Shown one piece after another: positions 10,111-19,781 of a stretch of 64,000 bases of DNA (position 1 is the stretch's first letter; every line of letters begins with the position of its first letter). The notes under the pieces were generated by a model. It ran no database searches, was not told where the DNA came from, and worked only from the letters and a program-made list of their open reading frames with translations. The stretch is from Gynurincola endophyticus (lineage in GTDB: Bacteria > Bacteroidota > Bacteroidia > Chitinophagales > Chitinophagaceae): NCBI RefSeq assembly GCF_003991195.1, contig NZ_RCWL01000001.1, forward strand, positions 868,001-932,000, in the 5' to 3' direction. Made by a program: the position numbers and the translations under genes.

Positions 10111-11109
10111 ATGAAGTTTTTAGTGATTCGTTTTTCATCTATCGGAGATATTGTACTGACTACACCCGTAATGCGTTGCCTGAAAACTCAGATCAGCACA
10201 GCGGAAGTACATTTTCTTACCAAAAAATCCTTTGTGGGGTTGATGGAAGCGAATCCCTATATTGATAAAATCATTACCCTTCAGGATGATTTTAATAATA
10301 CAGTTCAGGCATTAATTGAGGAAGATTATGATTATGTAATTGACCTGCATCATAATCTCAGAACATTACGCATTAAAAGATCACTGAAAAAGCAAACCTT
10401 CGCTTTTGATAAACTCAATTTTAAAAAATGGTTACTGACGGCTTTTAAAATTAATAAAATGCCGGATATACATATCGTTGACCGCTATCTGGCAACTGCC
10501 AGTAACTTTGGTGTTACCAACGATGGTAAAGGGCTTGATTATTTTATACCGGAAGGTAAAGGTGTAGACGTAGGTAAAGATTTGCCGTTGTCACATCAGG
10601 CTGGTTATATCGGTATAGTAATCGGCGCTACCTACTTTACAAAAAGGTATCCCCTGGATAATTTGAAATCTCTTTGTAAAAAAATCAATCATCCCGTTGT
10701 ATTATTGGGCGGTAAAGAAGATGCGGCAATAGGGGCTGAAATTGCAGCAACGGACCAGTATAAAATTTACAATGCCTGCGGAAAGTTCTCTCTGCATGAA
10801 TCTGCCGATCTCGTAAGAAATGCAAAAGTGGTGGTTTCAAATGATACAGGTTTAATGCATATTGCTGCGGCATTTAATAAACCTATTGTGTCTTTATGGG
10901 GAAATACGGTTCCTGAATTAGGCATGTATCCTTATTACGGTGAAAAACGGAGCGACTCTTATGCAAAGTCGAATATACTGGAGGTAAAAGGACTGGGCTG
11001 CAGACCCTGCTCAAAGATCGGATACAAAAAATGCCCCAAAGGGCATTTTAAGTGTATGGTTGAAATAACTCCTGATTCAGTGATCAGTGCTATCTCCAGA
11101 TTATTGTAA
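10111..11109 (+). CDS. Glycosyltransferase family 9 (heptosyltransferase-like)
   Basis: 332 aa. The N-terminal IRFSSIGDIVLTTPVMRCLK is the GT9 nucleotide-sugar enzyme signature, and NDTGLMHIAAAFNKPIVSLWG (about 247-267) is the conserved C-terminal donor-binding region. The family adds heptose or related sugars to LPS core at the cytoplasmic face of the inner membrane. The C-terminal cluster GLGCRPCSKIGYKKCPKGHFKCM, with four cysteines, is common in GT9 proteins and could bind a metal. It agrees with the presence of kdsA later in the window. Its 3' end overlaps the convergent mdh gene by 9 bp. Confidence 0.92.
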   Translation: MKFLVIRFSSIGDIVLTTPVMRCLKTQISTAEVHFLTKKSFVGLMEANPYIDKIITLQDDFNNTVQALIEEDYDYVIDLHHNLRTLRIKRSLKKQTFAFDKLNFKKWLLTAFKINKMPDIHIVDRYLATASNFGVTNDGKGLDYFIPEGKGVDVGKDLPLSHQAGYIGIVIGATYFTKRYPLDNLKSLCKKINHPVVLLGGKEDAAIGAEIAATDQYKIYNACGKFSLHESADLVRNAKVVVSNDTGLMHIAAAFNKPIVSLWGNTVPELGMYPYYGEKRSDSYAKSNILEVKGLGCRPCSKIGYKKCPKGHFKCMVEITPDSVISAISRLL

Positions 11110-12024
11110 AACAGCATTCATACTGCGAACTGCAGTAGCGCTTTCGTCAAATAATTTTTGTTCGTCGGCTGTAAGTTGGAAATCTATGATTTTTTCCCAA
11201 CCGTTTTTTCCGATGATAACAGGTACGCCTAAGCAAATATCTTTCTGTCCGTATTCGCCGTCTAAAGCTACACAGCAGGTAAATAATTTCTTCTCGTCTC
11301 TTACAATGGCTTCTACCAATGCAGCACCGGCAGCACCGGGAGCATACCAGGCACTTGTACCTAATAATTTGGTAAGAGTAGCTCCCCCAACCATGGTGTC
11401 TTTTACGATCTGCTCTTTCTGTGCATCCGTTAAAAAGTTTTTAACCGGAACACTATTCCAGGTCGCTTTATCAATCAAAGGAATCATAGTCGTATCGCCA
11501 TGACCACCGATTACAACGGCATTCAGGTCGGCAGCACTGCAATTCAGGTGTTGAGTGAGCTGATATTTGAATCTGGCACTATCTAATATACCTCCCATAC
11601 CAATAATTCTGTTCTTAGGTATGCCGGTTGATTTAAGTGCCAGATAGGTCATCGTATCCATCGGATTAGAGATGATAACGAAGATCGCATTGGGAGAGTA
11701 CTGGAGAATATTTTCGCAAACTGTTTTTACAATGTTCGCATTTGTACCGATTAATTCTTCACGGGTCATTCCCGGTTTACGTGGAATACCGGAAGTTACT
11801 ACCACTACATCGCTATTGGCAGTTTTTGAATAATCGTTCGTAGAACCGGTTACTCTTGTATCAAAATTAAGCAATGCAGCCGTTTGCATGATGTCCTGAG
11901 CTTTTCCTTCTGCAAAACCTTCTTTAATATCCAGTAATACTAATTCCGTTGCCAGTTCTTTTCTGGCAATATTGTCAGCACAGGTAGCACCTACTGCACC
12001 TGCACCCACTACAGTGATTTTCAT
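11101..12024 (-). CDS. mdh: Malate dehydrogenase
   Basis: 307 aa, LDH-like MDH group. It opens with a Rossmann nucleotide site VVGAGAVGATCADNIA (residues 4-19), has the SGIPRKPGMTREEL mobile loop with substrate-binding arginines (about 78-91), SNPMDTMTYL (about 118-127) and the catalytic histidine in VIGGHGDTTMIP. It interconverts malate and oxaloacetate with NAD in the TCA cycle. The last 9 bp overlap the convergent GT9 gene and no terminator lies between. It is downstream of the thioredoxin-like gene by 30 bp and may share its transcript. Confidence 0.95.
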   Translation of the reverse strand: MKITVVGAGAVGATCADNIARKELATELVLLDIKEGFAEGKAQDIMQTAALLNFDTRVTGSTNDYSKTANSDVVVVTSGIPRKPGMTREELIGTNANIVKTVCENILQYSPNAIFVIISNPMDTMTYLALKSTGIPKNRIIGMGGILDSARFKYQLTQHLNCSAADLNAVVIGGHGDTTMIPLIDKATWNSVPVKNFLTDAQKEQIVKDTMVGGATLTKLLGTSAWYAPGAAGAALVEAIVRDEKKLFTCCVALDGEYGQKDICLGVPVIIGKNGWEKIIDFQLTADEQKLFDESATAVRSMNAVLQ

Positions 12025-12054
12025 AAAAGATAAATTTAATAATCAGAACAATGG

Positions 12055-12543
12055 TTATTGTAATGCCTTTATCATATCGTCAACTTTCATATTACCTTGT
12101 TGTGCTTTTATCAGTTTACCTTTCTTGTCATACAACGCGATAAATGGCAAACTTTTGATATCATAAAACGGCGGTAATACATATTTAGTATCGATTCCTA
12201 ATTTGAAAGCAGGATACTTATGCATGTTATAATCATTGATGAATTTACTTAATTCTTCCGGTTTTGTATAACATGCCAGCACAAATTGAAATTGTTTTAT
12301 TTTATCGTAATTCTTTTGAAAGTCTTCTACCTGATGTTGACAATGGTCGCAGGTTGGACTAAAAAACATGATCACCGTAGGCTTTGCTTCTAAATTGCTT
12401 TTAGTATAAACCTGACGATCGATGGTGGTAATTTCAAAAGGCGGGAGCGTAGGGAATCTTTTGTAGGGAGGCAGATTGGCTTCTTGTGCCTGTGATACCC
12501 AGCTAAAACTTAAAAGAGTCAGTAAGAAAAATATCTGTTTCAA
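12055..12543 (-). CDS. Secreted thioredoxin-like (TlpA-type) protein
   Basis: 162 aa with an N-terminal signal peptide ending at AQ (about residue 20). The thioredoxin fold shows FFSPTCDHCQHQ with active-site CxxC cysteines C65 and C68, and a cis-proline region LPFIALYD. The likely role is disulfide reduction or redox chemistry in the periplasm. The start is a TTG: upstream in frame there is no ATG or GTG before a TGA 14 codons earlier, and the TTG gives a normal signal peptide. Confidence 0.85.
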   Translation of the reverse strand: MKQIFFLLTLLSFSWVSQAQEANLPPYKRFPTLPPFEITTIDRQVYTKSNLEAKPTVIMFFSPTCDHCQHQVEDFQKNYDKIKQFQFVLACYTKPEELSKFINDYNMHKYPAFKLGIDTKYVLPPFYDIKSLPFIALYDKKGKLIKAQQGNMKVDDMIKALQ

Positions 12544-12780: not shown

Positions 12781-12806
12781 TCCGAAAGTTTCGTATATTT
12801 ACGAAA
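12781..12806 (+). promoter_or_regulatory. BlaI-type operator at the blaI promoter
   Basis: Bases 12781-12795 match the operator TACGAATGTTTCGTA, seen twice before the GLPGLI gene, at 13 of 15 positions. A half-site TACGAA follows at 12800-12805, putting the next operator centre 19 bp away, the same spacing as at 18281-18334. The site overlaps a -7-like TATATTTA at 12794-12801, 18 bp before the blaI ATG, as expected for autorepression. Confidence 0.7.
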
Positions 12807-12819
12807 ACAAGAAAGTGTA

Positions 12820-13182
12820 ATGGAGAAGCTAACACCACAGGAAGAATCGGCAATGCTGGCCATCTGGAAGGTCGGACCGGGCTTTATCAAAGAGTTTATG
12901 GAAGCCATGTTACCCGAACAGATGCCTTATACTACCCTGGCTTCTATTGTAAAGAATTTAGAAAAAAAAGGTTTTGTAAAAAGTGAAAAATTCGCCAATG
13001 CCTACCGTTACAGTGCAAAAGTAAAGGAAGCCGATTACAAGAAAAAGTATATGCAGGGGGTCGTTAGTAACTTCTTCCAGAGCTCTTACAAAGAGTTGGT
13101 GACTTTTTTTGCTAAAGACAAAAAAATCAGTGCCGACGAACTGAAAGAAATTATTCAGCAAATAGAAAAGGGAGACAAATAA
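12820..13182 (+). CDS. blaI: BlaI/MecI/CopY family transcriptional repressor
   Basis: 120 aa from the ATG at 12820; an open frame extends 48 codons upstream, but it runs through the operator and adds unrelated sequence. The N-terminal winged helix (about 1-75) shows LTPQEESAMLAIWKVGPGFIKE and YTTLASIVKNLEKKGFV, typical of BlaI/MecI; the C-terminal helices dimerise. Family members repress their own operon and targets until a partner protease triggers their cleavage. The partner is encoded 1 bp downstream. Related operators at its own promoter and at 18281-18334 suggest it controls the GLPGLI/outer-membrane pair. The link to beta-lactams is not supported here. Confidence 0.9.
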   Translation: MEKLTPQEESAMLAIWKVGPGFIKEFMEAMLPEQMPYTTLASIVKNLEKKGFVKSEKFANAYRYSAKVKEADYKKKYMQGVVSNFFQSSYKELVTFFAKDKKISADELKEIIQQIEKGDK

Positions 13183-13183
13183 T

Positions 13184-14590
13184 ATGGAACAAGCAGGGCT
13201 TATATTATTAAAAACCAACGTAGCGATCATCATTTTTACAGCTTTCTATTGGCTGTTACTGAGAAAACTTACTTTTTATAATATCAACAGATTATACCTG
13301 CTGTTTGCAGTTCTGTTTTCGCTTTTATACCCTTTCATAGAGATTAGTAACCTTTTCTCTAAGCAACTTCCTTCAATTCCTGCAATGGTACCCCGGTTTG
13401 TATCGCGTACCGAAAGTTTACTTTCTGGTGCCTGGTTTTATCTGGCCTGTAGTATCTGGATTGTCGGGTTTTTATATTTTTTAATTAGACTAAGCATACA
13501 GTTTTATTCTTTACACCGGTTACACCGGCTTTCGGCTCCCAGTGAAACATCAGAAAATATCCGGATTGTTCATAATGAAGTAAGTCCGTTTTCTTTCGGC
13601 TCTTACATCTACATCAATCCGAAAATGCATTCGGAAGAAGAACTGAATGCTATTTTATTGCATGAACACATTCATGTACGTCAAAAACATTCAGTAGACA
13701 TTCTGGTAACAGAGTTTTTAATGTTGTTTAATTGGTTTAATCCTTTTTCATGGATATTACGAAAAGCCGTAAAAGATAATATTGAATATATAACTGATGA
13801 TCAGGTTTTGAAAAATGGTGTTAATAAAAAGGAATATCAATATCATTTACTGAATACTACTTGTTTATCACCAGATTTCAGAGTACAGAATAATTTTAGT
13901 ATTTCTGATCTTAGAAAAAGAATCAGCCAGATGAATATGAAAAGATCTGCAGCAGGGAAGTTGATTTTTTATTCAATGATTCCATTGCTGGCAGTTTTTT
14001 TGTTGTTATTCAATCAACCTGTAAAAAAGTTAACCCTGAATTTATTGTCACCGCAACAACAGGGGTTGTCTAATGAAAATGAAGCGAAAGAATCAGTAAA
14101 GATTGCTGAAGGCGTTCCGTTGGAAAGCGTTATCATTACGCCCTTGAATACTGCTGAAAAACAACAGTCTTCGGCCGGTATCAATGCTCCCGGTAATTCT
14201 ACACCGGCATCCACTTCCACACCGGCAAATAACACTATAAAAATTCAGCTCGAAGACCTTGCTGAAACACCGCCACCACCTCCACCGCAAGAAGCAAGAA
14301 CCAATCGCGTTTACAGGGGTGTTCCGGTTGCTACTGAAGAAAGCAAACAGCTCCAGTTAAAATTAGAATCAGCAATGACTAATAAAGAAGAAAACGCAAT
14401 TATTTTGCAAGGATATCCTTATGCTGTAAAGAAGTCTGATAATGAAAATTTACCTGCGAACAATTCCACAAAATTAGAAGAGGTAATTGTTCAGGGAGTT
14501 AAAAGAGTGAAGGGGGTTCCTCTTTCTGAAAAAAATACAACCGGTGATGATACAGAAGTAATTGTTATCGGACGTAAAACTCAACAATAA
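13184..14590 (+). CDS. M56 family (BlaR1-like) membrane metallopeptidase with non-canonical C-terminal tail
   Basis: 468 aa. Membrane segments lie near 5-26, 34-52, 84-102 and 260-276. The zinc-peptidase motif HEHIH is at 159-163 in a cytoplasmic loop, as in BlaR1/MecR1. The family cleaves or triggers loss of the cognate BlaI repressor after a signal. Instead of the penicillin-binding sensor domain of BlaR1 it has a 190-residue, low-complexity external tail: Ser/Thr/Asn-rich, six prolines at 363-368, and two copies resembling the TonB receptor plug entrance (LEEVIVQG and TEVIVIGRKTQ). Its ATG is 1 bp from the blaI stop, so the two are translationally linked. No clear terminator follows. Confidence 0.88.
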   Translation: MEQAGLILLKTNVAIIIFTAFYWLLLRKLTFYNINRLYLLFAVLFSLLYPFIEISNLFSKQLPSIPAMVPRFVSRTESLLSGAWFYLACSIWIVGFLYFLIRLSIQFYSLHRLHRLSAPSETSENIRIVHNEVSPFSFGSYIYINPKMHSEEELNAILLHEHIHVRQKHSVDILVTEFLMLFNWFNPFSWILRKAVKDNIEYITDDQVLKNGVNKKEYQYHLLNTTCLSPDFRVQNNFSISDLRKRISQMNMKRSAAGKLIFYSMIPLLAVFLLLFNQPVKKLTLNLLSPQQQGLSNENEAKESVKIAEGVPLESVIITPLNTAEKQQSSAGINAPGNSTPASTSTPANNTIKIQLEDLAETPPPPPPQEARTNRVYRGVPVATEESKQLQLKLESAMTNKEENAIILQGYPYAVKKSDNENLPANNSTKLEEVIVQGVKRVKGVPLSEKNTTGDDTEVIVIGRKTQQ

Positions 14591-14727
14591 ATTCTCTTTT
14601 ATTACAAATACAGGAAGAAAATAAAGACATCGTAACCTGAATGAAGAAACCTACTGATAATGAAAACGGATGTAGAACAGTTTCTTTCTGATGATGCTTT
14701 ATTTCCTTTCCTGCGTTTATTTGAATG

Positions 14728-17382
14728 CTACAGTTGAAAAGTGAATTTTATTAATGCCATTCTTCCTCTGATTAAATACCTGCTCATCGATGACATACCT
14801 GCTGTAACTCTCAATAATTCATACTCATTTACATTTGCAAGGTTGGTACAGTCCAGCTCAATATCTGTTTTCCATTTCTTTAAGTTGTAGCGCACTTTTG
14901 CATCTGCGAACCAATACTGTACATCGCTTCCGCTATTATTCCAGCTACTGATATTTCTCGCCTGAACCTGAAAAAGAAAATCCTTAAATAAATTAAAGGT
15001 GGCAGTAAACTGCTGATCAATTCTGTACATTTCGGAGGAGGTACTGTTTTTGATTTGCTGTTTCATGGTTTGATAACTGAGACTGCCGTTATAATTAAAG
15101 TTAATGCGTTTAAACAAACGTGTATCCAACCCTAATGAACCACTGAGTGTGTTAAACTTTGTAGGAATGAGTTCATCGTTAATTAACTGTCGTGAGTTGG
15201 TTTCTCCGTAAGCTGTTTTAACGGAAATAGTACTTTTCAGAAAATAAGAATATTTACTACCGCCCAATGTACCCTGAATACTTTCCATAATATTAGGAAC
15301 AGGTAACAATACTGATTCCTGTACATCGTCGGTTAAAGAATATGCAAGAATTGAGTTTACTTTTTCGCGTGAGTAAGTAATGCCAGCATTCAGGAAAAAC
15401 ATTTGAATCGTTCGCTGCAGGTTGTAGCGGATGCCTGCCTGGTGCGATTGGGCTTCCTGTAAAATGGCATTATTTGCTTGTAGCGAACGATAATTGGTTA
15501 AAATAACTGCCCGATATATGCTGTTAATATCTGAAATAGAGTTATTGAAACTATAAGATAATTGTAAAAAATCTTCTGTGCTCGTATACCATCTTGCACT
15601 GAGCGAAGGCGTAAACCAAACTCTTTTTTGTTGCTCTTTCATCGAAAACTCTTCTTGCTGATAGCGGATTGATTGCAGTATCAGTGGCAGCGAAATACTG
15701 GTTTCATATTTACCTTTTTTCGACCATCCGTAAAGTGCTGTAAAAGTAGCTGAAGTATTATTCCATTTCAGGCGATTGGTAGTGCTGTCAACTAAAGTCC
15801 AGTTATGATTATTCTGCTGCAACAACAGGTCTGAATTCAATTCTTTATTCTCCTGTAACAGAACAGCACTATACTGTTGTCTGAATATACCTTTTGATAT
15901 TAAGTAATTAGTGGCTATCCGGTTTTTAAAAGCCGGCATATCGGCAGTTTGCCGCATGGCTGTATAGGGAATACCATTGTTAAGAATATCAGCATGTAAA
16001 CCGTCATCAACATATAATTGCTGCGGACGTTTGCTGTAATTAAAACTCCACGCAAAATCAAGTATCCCTCTTTGTTTTATTGAAGGGGTGAAATTGAATG
16101 CATTTGCAATAGTAAAAGGTTTTTGACGGAGGTTTTGGGAGAATGAATTCTGGTGTGTTGTAAGCTGGTTAGGATCGTGAATGCCTTCCGCTTCCACTGT
16201 CAGGCGGTTACTTAAATAGTATCTTTCTTTATTGGCCATTATGGTAAATGCACCATTCAATATCCACGGCTTTTTTTGAATGTTTTGTTGTTCAAAATAA
16301 CGAATGGTATCAGTGGCTGTATACAATTCGGTAAAGCTATTGTATTCCTGTGTTTGCCGGTCGGTAAAAGCCTGAATATTGGTTCTGAATTGAAACTGAT
16401 TTTTAGTGTTCACAAGAAAATTGATATTGGCAAGTCCGGAACGGTTGAAATAATAATTGCGTCGTGGAAGATCGGGGTTACCGGCTGTTCCTGATGACAA
16501 TAGCTGTGAGGAAGAAGCGGATAATTGATTTTCTGTAAAACCACCCATACGTGTTATTTCATTACGGTAATCCTCACCTGTATTATTGATTTTTAAAGTG
16601 TTGAGTGTTTTTACTTTTTTGTTTAATAATACAGTATTCAGATTAGATGTTAGCAGTTTGGGGGCACCTATGCCAATCATTGCCTGACCGGATAGTGCCC
16701 AGCTATTTTCATCTTTTAAAACAAGATTAAGACCTATATTATCAGTAGGTTTTTTATTTCTTAATACTTTAACGGGTTGATGATTCTGAATAACATCTAC
16801 ACTTTCGATCATTTCTTTTTTGATAACTTTTGTAGCACCTCCGTAGCGGCCATCCATCAAGTCATCGTCGTGCATATAGAGATTCGAAATTTCTTTTCCG
16901 TTATAATAGATCTTTCCGCTTTCATCTATGTCAAGGCCCGGCATTCTTTTTATTACATCGGCAATACTGCGGTCTTCATCTTTAGCGAAAGAAGATACTT
17001 TATATCTTGTAGTGTCGCCACGGGTAATGATGGGTGGTTGTTTAACTACTACCTGACTAAGTATTTCAGCTGATTCGTCCATTGTAAAATTATAAATGAA
17101 CTTACCCTTTTCAATCAATTGCTGTAAAGATTGGTAGCTGATATGTTTAACTTCAAGGTTTGTTTTTTTGACGAATACAGTGTCTGCAACCACCAGTGAA
17201 AATTCTCCTTTTGTATTGGTAACGGCATACTTTAGTACTAGGTTTTTTTCGTTTTTAATTAAAATGGTAACCCCCGCGAGAGGGCTACCCGATTTGTCTT
17301 TCACGGTACCTTTAATAGATTGCTGCGCCTGGCTGAGCAAACAGCATAAGGTGAAAAGGGTTGTCAGCAATAATGAATTCAT
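14728..17382 (-). CDS. Outer membrane beta-barrel protein with carboxypeptidase-regulatory-like N-terminus (TonB-receptor-like)
   Basis: 884 aa. Signal peptide 1-19 ends at AQ; residues about 22-95 form a carboxypeptidase-regulatory-like beta-sandwich (IKGTVKDKSGSPLAGVTI); next a plug-like region (IADVIKRMPGLDIDESGKIYYNGKEI at about 140-165); then a long beta-barrel with many aromatic, alternating strands to the C-terminal aromatic-rich end. The family resembles TonB-dependent receptors and may import or release a large ligand across the outer membrane. The ATG overlaps the TAA of the GLPGLI gene (TAATG), so the two are translated together. The pair faces the blaI operon tail to tail, leaving 137 bp. 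Confidence 0.85.
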   Translation of the reverse strand: MNSLLLTTLFTLCCLLSQAQQSIKGTVKDKSGSPLAGVTILIKNEKNLVLKYAVTNTKGEFSLVVADTVFVKKTNLEVKHISYQSLQQLIEKGKFIYNFTMDESAEILSQVVVKQPPIITRGDTTRYKVSSFAKDEDRSIADVIKRMPGLDIDESGKIYYNGKEISNLYMHDDDLMDGRYGGATKVIKKEMIESVDVIQNHQPVKVLRNKKPTDNIGLNLVLKDENSWALSGQAMIGIGAPKLLTSNLNTVLLNKKVKTLNTLKINNTGEDYRNEITRMGGFTENQLSASSSQLLSSGTAGNPDLPRRNYYFNRSGLANINFLVNTKNQFQFRTNIQAFTDRQTQEYNSFTELYTATDTIRYFEQQNIQKKPWILNGAFTIMANKERYYLSNRLTVEAEGIHDPNQLTTHQNSFSQNLRQKPFTIANAFNFTPSIKQRGILDFAWSFNYSKRPQQLYVDDGLHADILNNGIPYTAMRQTADMPAFKNRIATNYLISKGIFRQQYSAVLLQENKELNSDLLLQQNNHNWTLVDSTTNRLKWNNTSATFTALYGWSKKGKYETSISLPLILQSIRYQQEEFSMKEQQKRVWFTPSLSARWYTSTEDFLQLSYSFNNSISDINSIYRAVILTNYRSLQANNAILQEAQSHQAGIRYNLQRTIQMFFLNAGITYSREKVNSILAYSLTDDVQESVLLPVPNIMESIQGTLGGSKYSYFLKSTISVKTAYGETNSRQLINDELIPTKFNTLSGSLGLDTRLFKRINFNYNGSLSYQTMKQQIKNSTSSEMYRIDQQFTATFNLFKDFLFQVQARNISSWNNSGSDVQYWFADAKVRYNLKKWKTDIELDCTNLANVNEYELLRVTAGMSSMSRYLIRGRMALIKFTFQL

Positions 17383-18263
17383 TATTTCAGTTCTAGGGGA
17401 TTACTTAATACAGCTTTCGTCTTTTTTCTTTTTTCTTCCAATAAGCGGTGTGCCGCTTCATCTGAATGAAACTTATCATTACGGTCTCTGAAACGGAACA
17501 GGATGTTGCCGGTTACACCTGTTTGTGCCTGAACAACACCGGAAGGGTTTTGGTCAAAACCATCTTTTGCTTTGTTGAAAGCTGATTGCGTAACACTCAC
17601 AGGTTCTTTGTACAATTCATTTTGAGTCATTTCTCCTTCCCTGGCCTGTGCTATTCTGTTGAATATAAAAAAGACTTCACCTTTGTCATCGGTGGCTTCC
17701 AGAATAGTTCCCGGTAAGCCATTGAGTTTCCAGGGACCTGCCTGGGAGGGAAGTTCGGTGGTAAACCATGCGGTGTATTTTCTTCCTGCAAAAGTGCCGG
17801 TGGCTTCCTGACAGGTATATTCGCCTACTTGTTTGGTATTAGACGTTATCTGCCAGTTGATAGTAGGATATGATTCTTTAATAGAATATAGCATTACACC
17901 TACTGATGCCGTTTTTTGAATTTCTTTTTTTGAATGGTTAAAGAATAAAGCATCGTCTGTAATTCCCCAGTCGTTTACGATGGCCATCGGGCGTCCTACA
18001 GCTGTTATGGTAACAGAACCGGGTGGGGGTGGAGGCAGTAACTCTTTTTTTTGTATAACCGCTTCAAAATCTAATCTTCCATAAGCACTACCTTCAGGAG
18101 ATACGCGCAGCACGAGTTTCTCATTATGTAAAGTATCGTTTTTGGCCTTGTTCAGGAGATGAATAAATTGATACTCTACTTTAAAGAGCATTGGTTCGGG
18201 TTGTTGCGCCCGGGCAGAAACTGTAATGAATGCTGAAGCTGCCAGTAGTAATGATTTTAGCAT
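17382..18263 (-). CDS. GLPGLI family secreted protein
   Basis: 293 aa with a signal peptide ending near ARAQ (residue 20). The family motif appears as NGLPGTILEATDDKG, GLPG at 182-185. Five consecutive prolines lie at 77-81. GLPGLI proteins are Bacteroidota-specific, probably periplasmic or outer-membrane-attached, and usually encoded beside a TonB-receptor-like barrel as here; their function is unknown. Three phased operator-like sites lie 18-71 bp before its start, so the operon is very probably controlled by the BlaI-type repressor encoded at 12820. Confidence 0.88.
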   Translation of the reverse strand: MLKSLLLAASAFITVSARAQQPEPMLFKVEYQFIHLLNKAKNDTLHNEKLVLRVSPEGSAYGRLDFEAVIQKKELLPPPPPGSVTITAVGRPMAIVNDWGITDDALFFNHSKKEIQKTASVGVMLYSIKESYPTINWQITSNTKQVGEYTCQEATGTFAGRKYTAWFTTELPSQAGPWKLNGLPGTILEATDDKGEVFFIFNRIAQAREGEMTQNELYKEPVSVTQSAFNKAKDGFDQNPSGVVQAQTGVTGNILFRFRDRNDKFHSDEAAHRLLEEKRKKTKAVLSNPLELK

Positions 18264-18274
18264 ATAATATATTT

Positions 18275-18334
18275 TAAATCTACGAATGTTTCGTAAATGT
18301 ACGTAAATATTGTATTTATTACGAATGTTTCGTA
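18275..18334 (-). promoter_or_regulatory. Phased BlaI-type operator array and promoter of the GLPGLI operon
   Basis: Two perfect 15-bp inverted repeats TACGAA-TGT-TTCGTA lie at 18281-18295 and 18320-18334. Between them, at 18300-18314, TACGTAAATATTGTA matches 10 of 15 positions. The centres are 19 and 20 bp apart, about two helical turns each. A minus-strand -7-like box (TAGATTTA, 18275-18282) overlaps the first operator, and a TTTA -33 candidate lies within the middle one. Confidence 0.8.
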
Positions 18335-18508: not shown

Positions 18509-19075
18509 ATGGCAAATACATCAGATATCAGCCGTGGCATGATTCTTAAGCTAGATGGCAACCTTTACTCTGTAGTGGAGTTTGGAGAAAACAAAACTGC
18601 ACGTGCTGCCGCAAAAGTTTGGGCAAAACTAAAAGGTGTTGACAACAAACGCAGCATTGAGAAAACATGGAACTCTGGCGATACTATCTACCCTGTTCGT
18701 GTAGAGCGTAAACCTTTCCAGTTTTTGTATAAGGATGATTCAGGGTATAACTTCATGGATAATGAAACTTTTGAACAAATTGCATTAGGAGAAGATCTGA
18801 TCGATGCTCCTCAATACCTGAAAGACGGTTCAGAAGTAAGTATCATGGTGAATACAGAATCAGAAACACCGATTGGTGTTGAGTTACCTGACAAAATTGT
18901 GTTGAGAGTAACTTATTCTGAGCCTGGTATCAAAGGTGATACAGCTACCAGAACTTTAAAACCTGCAACGCTTGAAACAGGTGCTTCGATTAACGTGCCT
19001 TTATTTGTGAATGAGGGCGAGTTAATTCGTATCAATACGAAAACGAACGAGTACGTTGAGCGTGTAAAAGAATAA
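18509..19075 (+). CDS. efp: Translation elongation factor P
   Basis: 188 aa from the ATG at 18509 (an in-frame TTG nine codons upstream is less likely). KOW-like domain I, OB domains II and III; the C-terminal signature region YSEPGIKGDTATRTLKPATL is intact. EF-P enters the ribosome E site and relieves stalling at consecutive prolines. The domain I tip loop reads GENKTARAAAK (26-36) where most bacteria have a KPGKG-type loop with the functional Lys or Arg; K29 is the aligned basic residue. The gene lies next to genes coding for runs of six and five prolines. Confidence 0.95.
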   Translation: MANTSDISRGMILKLDGNLYSVVEFGENKTARAAAKVWAKLKGVDNKRSIEKTWNSGDTIYPVRVERKPFQFLYKDDSGYNFMDNETFEQIALGEDLIDAPQYLKDGSEVSIMVNTESETPIGVELPDKIVLRVTYSEPGIKGDTATRTLKPATLETGASINVPLFVNEGELIRINTKTNEYVERVKE

Positions 19076-19289
19076 TTGTAATTGGCTGCTGTAAAAGCAG
19101 CCTTTTTGCTTTGCAATATTTGGATAATAGCATACGTTATTGTCCTTTTTTATATAATGAAAATCGGGTGAAACACCTTGAGGTTGAGCATTTTTTCAAC
19201 GAAAAGGTAATTTTTTGGTGACATTTAATGATGAATCATTAACTTAGCCGACTGTTTAGCCCGTATAATTAGAAATAAAAGCTTAAAAA

Positions 19290-19781
19290 ATGGATTTTAA
19301 ACAAATACAGGAGTTGATCAAAATGATCAATAAATCCAACATCGGTGAAGTAAGCATTGAGGAAAAGGGATTTAAAGTAACGATCAAACAAAAAGAAGAC
19401 CCTGTTCAACAAGTGATTGCTACTGCGCCTGCAGCTATTCAGGCATATGCTCAGCCTTCTGCTGCTCCGGCGTCAGTTACTGCCGCAACCCCAACTTCTG
19501 CTGCAGAAAAACCTAAAGCTGCTGATGTTGAATCAAGCAACTACATTACTATCAAATCTCCAATGATTGGTACTTTCTATCGCAGCGCTTCTCCGGGTAA
19601 ACCTACATTTGTTGAAGTAGGTACGGAAATCGCTCCGGGTAAAGTAGTTTGTATCATCGAAGCAATGAAATTATTCAACGAAATCGAAGCGGAAGTAAAA
19701 GGTAAAATCGTAAAAATATTAGTGGACGATGCTTCTCCAGTTGAATACGACCAACCTTTATTCTTAGTGGAACCTATGTAA
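19290..19781 (+). CDS. accB: Acetyl-CoA carboxylase biotin carboxyl carrier protein
   Basis: 163 aa, normal length. Residues 1-36 are the conserved N-terminal region, about 38-80 an Ala/Pro-rich flexible linker, and about 84-163 the biotinyl domain with IIEAMKLFNE; K127 is the biotin attachment lysine. It carries carboxyl-biotin between AccC and the carboxyltransferase in the first step of fatty acid synthesis. accC follows 52 bp later and they form the usual accBC operon. Confidence 0.96.
   Translation: MDFKQIQELIKMINKSNIGEVSIEEKGFKVTIKQKEDPVQQVIATAPAAIQAYAQPSAAPASVTAATPTSAAEKPKAADVESSNYITIKSPMIGTFYRSASPGKPTFVEVGTEIAPGKVVCIIEAMKLFNEIEAEVKGKIVKILVDDASPVEYDQPLFLVEPM

Follow-up and report, generated by a model that had tools for sequence, protein, structure and literature searches.

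A BlaI-type repressor and its M56 membrane protease partner probably form an autoregulated switch that controls both their own operon and a facing operon for an outer-membrane receptor-like protein and a GLPGLI-family protein, acting through tandem operators at the two promoters. Our analysis is centred on the window, by which we mean the whole 64,000-nucleotide stretch of the Gynurincola endophyticus genome under study. A sequence-only reading of the window had proposed a circuit with a shared operator, and this circuit is well supported at the level of sequence because both the gene pairing and the operator are conserved in relatives. The regulator class is known; the operator and the output are new, and the input is probably new. 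BlaI-M56 pairs recur across the Chitinophagaceae and are here given a defined operator, a promoter position and a conserved output, pointing to what may be an outer-membrane control circuit kept by relatives. In the accessible parts of the open-licence literature, a scope outside which most subscription papers fall, we found no paper giving a Bacteroidota BlaI-M56 pair an operator or a target. Hemin-response tables list, in the part available to us, a BlaI and an M56 gene without mechanism (PMC10470040), and the accessible portion of a further paper (PMC12578637) holds nothing on BlaI-M56.

Operator sites and gene layout in the window

The blaI and M56 genes had been described as lying one base apart, the GLPGLI and barrel genes as overlapping in a TAATG, and the two pairs as facing each other; all of this was confirmed (Table 1). 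No SusD lipoprotein gene was seen among the four annotated genes, the neighbour of the barrel gene being the GLPGLI gene. The two perfect dyads before the GLPGLI gene were likewise recovered, and the dyad before blaI, previously given as 13 of 15 matching letters, corresponds to one mismatch in the 12 fixed positions. As to the earlier statement that there is no other copy, the window holds no further site at zero or one mismatch and four at two mismatches. Both promoters are multi-site, beyond what had been described, and share the core TCGTA-NN-TTTACGA, which is perfect before blaI and carries one mismatch at 18291-18304. The second dyad of the blaI promoter in the window is half lost, which counts against the shared-operator reading.

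Table 1. Genes, protein motifs and operator sites of the two facing operons (window coordinates)
Feature	Position	Strand	Details
Operator dyad before blaI	12781-12795	.	TACGAA-N3-TTCGTA with 1 mismatch
Operator/promoter core TCGTATATTTACGA	12791-12804	+	-7-like TAnnTTTA
Half-site TACGAA before blaI	12800-12805	.	Remnant of second dyad at 19-base pitch
BlaI-type repressor gene (blaI)	12820-13182	+	120 aa; PF03965, 91.3 bits; ATG at 12820
M56 membrane zinc protease gene	13184-14590	+	468 aa; PF05569, 50.6 bits; BlaR1-like without penicillin-binding domain
HExxH zinc site of M56 (HEHIH, residues 160-164)	13661-13675	+	From sequence; conserved in relatives
M56 C-terminal tail (residues 276-468), proline-rich	14009-14587	+	Presumed periplasmic by analogy with BlaR1
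Ton-box-like motif EEVIVQG (M56 residues 432-438)	14477-14497	+	Compare DEVVVTG of Bt1763
Ton-box-like motif TEVIVIG (M56 residues 457-463)	14552-14572	+	Compare DEVVVTG of Bt1763
TonB-dependent-receptor-like outer-membrane protein (barrel)	14728-17382	-	884 aa; CarboxypepD-like N-terminal domain, plug, barrel
GLPGLI-family secreted protein	17382-18263	-	293 aa; upstream gene of two-gene operon; TIGR01200
Operator dyad 1 before GLPGLI	18281-18295	.	Perfect TACGAA-N3-TTCGTA
TACGTA between GLPGLI dyads	18300-18305	.	From sequence
Operator dyad 2 before GLPGLI	18320-18334	.	Perfect TACGAA-N3-TTCGTA

Expected dyad counts were calculated from a dinucleotide model of the window scaled to the 4.53-Mb genome, yielding 0.32 perfect, 12.4 one-mismatch and 215 two-mismatch sites. 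The genome contains three perfect and five one-mismatch dyads and a total of 211 at up to two mismatches, for which the summed model predicts 227. A genome-wide scan at two mismatches therefore gives no signal, and single-dyad scanning at this threshold is useless as a regulon test because the counts are at chance level. The reversed-pattern control is uninformative for single sites, since it exceeds the observed count in this genome (36 compared with 8). Finding two perfect copies within one promoter, 39 bases from each other, nevertheless goes far beyond chance. At five loci with core-pattern matches elsewhere in the genome, none had dyads at the right pitch, and no further convincing target was found among the single-dyad and core-pattern sites inspected. 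The earlier claim of a regulon thus holds for the blaI-M56 and GLPGLI-barrel promoters and lacks a third member among these sites, so that in this genome the word means two promoters. At one locus (L265, G000:C1:770407), a perfect core and, at a distance of 42 bases, a two-mismatch dyad precede the gene for a secreted protein. The genome also carries a second GLPGLI/barrel set (L122, G000:C28) with two GLPGLI genes and no dyad.

Conservation of the operator and the four-gene unit

The barrel search covered 294 family genomes, 34 of which gave a match at 1e-60, and named genomes, which contributed 33 loci; after removal of nine repeats, 58 distinct barrel loci were annotated. The whole four-gene unit was present in 17 of these, nine from Chitinophagaceae (six genus labels) and eight from Pedobacter, and the M56 protease accompanies BlaI in all 17. 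The Chitinophagaceae loci are the window, UBA4857, Paraflavitalea pollutisoli with two more genomes of its genus label, two loci of another single genus label (L148 and L149), Terrimonas ginsenosidimutans and strain PMP191F. By script, a dyad with at most one mismatch was found within 150 bases of the GLPGLI gene at 14 of the 17 linked and 7 of the 41 unlinked loci, and in 0.05% of letter-shuffled upstream regions. The Fisher p-value for the dyad in linked versus unlinked loci is 5e-6 and is only a guide, as the linked loci are related and the counts hence not independent. Of the three linked loci missed, L162 and L168 do contain a perfect dyad, which the script overlooked because the GLPGLI start had been called too far upstream, and L146 contains one with two mismatches. 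After correction of these starts, a dyad with up to two mismatches precedes GLPGLI in 17/17 linked loci. Before blaI such a dyad is present in 16/17, the window being counted from its ATG, and the exception is L146 with three mismatches. Judged by sequence, the proposed shared-operator circuit is borne out by these counts, and the gene-order comparison finds both pairing and operator conserved across six Chitinophagaceae genera and Pedobacter. Against this reading, the sites in the closest relative, UBA4857, are weaker, with two and three mismatches. Four Pedobacter loci (L163, L165, L166 and L177) contain two consecutive GLPGLI genes, each preceded by a dyad, and L177 has one further frame, in two pieces.

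The operator was also followed on the repressor side. In 14 of 19 BlaI loci (L047-L065), the blaI start is immediately preceded by a pair of TACGAA-type dyads with a pitch of 19 or 20 bases; some of these dyads are degenerate, and the remaining five loci show other arrangements. A tandem operator, defined as TACGAA-N3-TTCGTA-NN-TT-TACGAA-N3-TTCGTA with at most three mismatches, is present in 89 of the 294 family genomes and 42 of 101 genera. The reversed tandem pattern does not occur among the matches listed for the 294 genomes and thus the tandem arrangement, unlike single copies, is above chance. Chosen close pairs agree at 116 of 120 half-site positions, 25 of 30 spacer positions and 299 of 390 flank positions. 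Among 29 tandem-operator loci read, blaI lies directly downstream in 27; in the other two (G128 and G251) it follows 1.2-1.3 kb on, behind one gene for a 387-aa CarboxypepD-domain protein (G128) or a 378-aa protein looking alike (G251). In L225 (7374-7407) and L190, the tandem operator precedes a gene for a secreted CarboxypepD-domain protein, with blaI immediately downstream of it.

Bacteroidota promoters have a -33 element, TTTG, and a -7 element, TAnnTTTG, about 19 bases apart. Across the 27 loci with blaI directly downstream, the consensus reads AAATAAATTTG, first dyad, TAGATTTA and a second dyad close to the ATG, with TTTG 19 bases before TAGATTTA, one dyad in the spacer and the other downstream. 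As this spacing matches the promoter, the first dyad would fill the spacer and the second would cover the transcription start. From its sequence, the tandem operator overlaps a promoter of Bacteroidota type. Scans for sigma-70 promoters and terminators gave results at shuffle level and were not used.

Because the operator overlaps the promoter, its action is likely repression. Position and conservation suggest that BlaI would bind the tandem TACGAA-N3-TTCGTA dyads over both core promoters and block the blaI-M56 and GLPGLI-barrel operons. M56, a zinc protease of the inner membrane, would read an envelope signal via its periplasmic tail and cause cleavage of BlaI, as in BlaR1/MecR1. Both operons would then be derepressed, supplying the outer membrane and periplasm with the receptor-like protein and its GLPGLI partner. 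Derepression would also yield more repressor and sensor, so the response would be self-limiting.

The dyad is found away from blaI as well. The seven unlinked GLPGLI/barrel pairs that carry it (L147, L151, L152, L154, L169, L126 and L127) all come from genomes whose best M56 match elsewhere adjoins a BlaI gene. In six, a dyad with at most one mismatch precedes the distant blaI (in L283 the called start lies beyond the dyad); the seventh, Olivibacter sitiensis, has only a three-mismatch site there. The other 34 of the 41 unlinked pairs have no dyad at up to two mismatches, which counts against the reading. Four genomes with dyad-less pairs were searched: G322 and G324 are without such a BlaI operator, and G323 and G325, which have it, count against the reading because the BlaI operator is present and the pair's dyad absent. 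That the dyads belong to another regulator, with the two operons merely co-regulated neighbours, is nevertheless highly improbable. The 27 of 29 tandem sites directly before blaI occur in genomes where no GLPGLI/barrel pair adjoins them, and dyad-bearing pairs in trans come with a dyad-bearing BlaI in six of seven genomes. Another BlaI clade, including the second pair of the G. endophyticus genome (L061), moreover carries a different, CTAAT..ATTAG-type dyad in the same place. In this second BlaI-M56 class (L061, G000:C5; L062; L064), the M56 tails contain repeated helical-looking units.

In at least six genomes (G029, G236, G281, G107, G315 and G184), a second receptor-like gene is preceded by a tandem operator, and the three such genes scanned match PF14905 with a CarboxypepD domain. 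The operator therefore reaches other outer-membrane genes among the matches listed, and by sequence other genera have more targets than two promoters. The corresponding sites (L208, 8120-8153; L209, 8084-8117; L210; L211; L223; L224) lie away from BlaI. Tandem operators not beside BlaI were also seen near secreted-protein genes of 389 and 366 aa (L226, 7627-7660; L229, 814-847), and the large genes adjoining the operator in L226 resemble a SusC/SusD pair by eye.

In several genera the BlaI-M56 pair with its operator lies between mdh-/thioredoxin-like genes and efp-accB, the order being mdh-like, thioredoxin-like, blaI, M56, efp, accB (L048, L049, L051, L052, L055, L215, L216, L220-L222, L228 and L237). 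The window unit occupies this same place (flanks 11101-12543 and 18509-19781), the barrel and GLPGLI genes separating M56 from efp, and none of the 16 other linked loci has mdh, thioredoxin, efp or accB neighbours. In the M56 tree the window joins UBA4857 (100/100) and the other 15 linked proteins form one clade with L054; a second clade holds 16 others, 11 of them with at least one neighbour of mdh/thioredoxin/efp/accB type. Linked, trans and unlinked members are scattered in the barrel tree, a pattern consistent with the link between blaI-M56 and the barrel having been gained and lost repeatedly. At the mdh-efp place, three loci (L220, L221 and L222) have two consecutive M56 genes behind one blaI.

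Predicted properties of the regulator, output and input

BlaI matches PF03965 over the whole protein (E 7e-26; 91.3 bits, gathering score 22.6), its closest solved structures are BlaI (1sd4) and MecI at about 1e-7, and a putative dyad operator lies in its own promoter. Staphylococcal BlaI is cut at the residue pair N-F; this pair aligns with F-F in the window protein, which counts against the reading. The M56 protein matches PF05569 (E 2.1e-13; 50.6 against 31 bits) and BlaR1 (8exs, E 8.6e-4), and its zinc-site residues H160, E161, H164, E201 and D205 are invariant in 51 relatives. Pfam gave no match to a penicillin-binding domain in the window protein, and blaR1_generic scored 30.4 against 400 bits. 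The sensor is thus not a BlaR1, since the defining domain is missing; the circuit is otherwise BlaI/BlaR1-like. In a cell-wall or beta-lactam circuit, M56 would, like BlaR1, respond to beta-lactams or to peptidoglycan damage, with the receptor pair as an indirect output. Such a circuit is improbable, even though it agrees with the family membership of BlaI and M56 and with the third perfect dyad of the genome, a single copy before a serine hydrolase resembling beta-lactamase-family proteins by eye. None of 24 homologues of this hydrolase has a dyad of up to two mismatches within 400 bases upstream, and 0.32 perfect sites are expected by chance; the hydrolase was rejected as a target and its dyad taken as chance. 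The missing penicillin-binding domain also argues against this circuit, as do the conserved neighbours, which are outer-membrane and not cell-wall genes.

The output had been called undescribed in function and can, by prediction, be better defined as of TonB-dependent-receptor type with a partner of the PNGase F-II-N/LolA/RseB fold class. The barrel protein has the CarboxypepD-like matches PF13620 and PF13715. With its AlphaFold2 model (pLDDT 86.2), the best 50 Foldseek matches are all TonB-dependent receptors (best 6i97, E 8.2e-16), with low TM-scores to the query (0.27-0.40) despite good E-values. Model and Foldseek together predict a plug inside the barrel; the plug Pfam families are unmatched in the window barrel and weak in L160 (E 0.0052). 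A candidate Ton box, ILSQVVVKQPPI, precedes the plug. The barrel falls outside SusC/RagA, scoring 36 against 368 bits with TIGR04056. The GLPGLI protein matches TIGR01200 (144.7 bits, cut-off 50). In its model (pLDDT 86.4), residues 24-237 are nearest in fold to the N-terminal domain of PNGase F-II (Z 16.8, rmsd 2.9 over 172), followed at Z 8-10 by a Thermus protein, LolA (Z 9.6), VioE, EPDR1, RseB (Z 8.6) and MucB, with rmsd near 4 for LolA, RseB and MucB. The predicted resemblance is thus strongest to the PNGase F-II N-terminal domain and weaker to LolA/RseB, and a family named only for a motif gains a predicted fold and a partner. In the accessible part of a study on Riemerella, PhoP targets include GLPGLI genes (PMC9603813).

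No Pfam domain was matched in the tail of the window M56 protein. Its two Ton-box-like motifs (Table 1) are close to the Ton box DEVVVTG of Bt1763, a SusC protein; in the part of the study available to us, Ton-box mutants of Bt1763 show a growth defect on levan similar to that of a strain lacking SusD (PMC7782687). Among linked Chitinophagaceae tails such motifs occur in 6/9 under a strict and 9/9 under a relaxed definition, compared with two and four of 22 other M56 tails and a mean of 0.02 to 0.37 matches per set of shuffled tails. None of the eight linked Pedobacter tails has the motif, and it was rejected as a universal feature of the circuit. When 51 M56 proteins were scanned singly at 0.01, 18 matched Plug (best 7.8e-16), two TonB_C and two CarbopepD_reg_2, several of these matches lying below the gathering score. 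Based on the Ton-box-like motifs and the Plug and TonB_C matches, M56 tails weakly favour the TonB system over the cell wall. Two M56 proteases (L063 and L113) themselves end in a TonB C-terminal domain (TonB_C 4.9e-16 and, slightly below the cut-off, 4.3e-5). One M56 protein with a plug match (L225, 9071-11344) ends in a match to a type IX secretion sorting domain, which is unexpected in an inner-membrane protein.

As the most likely input we tentatively propose the condition of the outer membrane or of TonB-dependent transport; the lack of Ton-box-like motifs in all eight Pedobacter tails weakens this proposal. Rather unlikely is a soluble or metal signal, in a CopY-like or nutrient response where the receptor would import, and the circuit read, one defined substrate. 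The best Foldseek matches of the barrel include siderophore and copper receptors and BlaI belongs to the CopY superfamily (TIGR02698, E 1.3e-8), but at 35 of 122 bits the latter match is far below cut-off. The receptor likeness is moreover to the whole class with no single substrate, and the constant presence of M56 beside BlaI in linked loci speaks for a membrane-borne signal. Returning to a TonB-related input, a broader and quite doubtful proposal is that Bacteroidota have rewired a BlaR1-type protease from antibiotic sensing to TonB-dependent transport. Its periplasmic part would be built from Ton-box-like repeats, plug fragments and TonB C-terminal domains; TonB engagement or receptor traffic would set the protease, and BlaI would adjust the receptor repertoire.

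Comparison with known systems

The circuit resembles BlaI/BlaR1 and MecI/MecR1 of staphylococci in having a winged-helix repressor, drawn from the same Pfam family and encoded next to an M56 HExxH membrane protease, short inverted-repeat operators and predicted control of its own and a facing operon. It differs in its sensor, which lacks the penicillin-binding domain and has a tail with Ton-box-like motifs, in its TACGAA-N3-TTCGTA operator, arranged in tandem at 19-20 bases, and in its output of receptor and GLPGLI protein instead of beta-lactamase or PBP. CopY/CopR is a related repressor whose operator, TACANNTGTA in the accessible part of the source (PMC7253601), also has TAC...GTA ends. The dyad here spans 15 bases instead of 10, the repressor has an M56 partner, and TIGR02698 reaches only the 35 bits given above.

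The output shares a CarboxypepD-like N-terminal domain and the predicted receptor-with-plug fold with SusC-type and other TonB-dependent receptors, whereas its TIGR04056 score is 36 of 368 bits and its neighbour is GLPGLI, not a SusD lipoprotein. The predicted GLPGLI fold (residues 24-237) resembles the PNGase F-II N-terminal domain and, less closely, RseB/MucB and LolA, but at an identity of about 5-12%. In the FecA-FecR-FecI transducers, the state of outer-membrane transport is carried to transcription. Here, protease and repressor would transmit instead, the unit containing no sigma/anti-sigma gene; if the TonB link is true, the transport state of the outer membrane would reach transcription without a sigma/anti-sigma pair.
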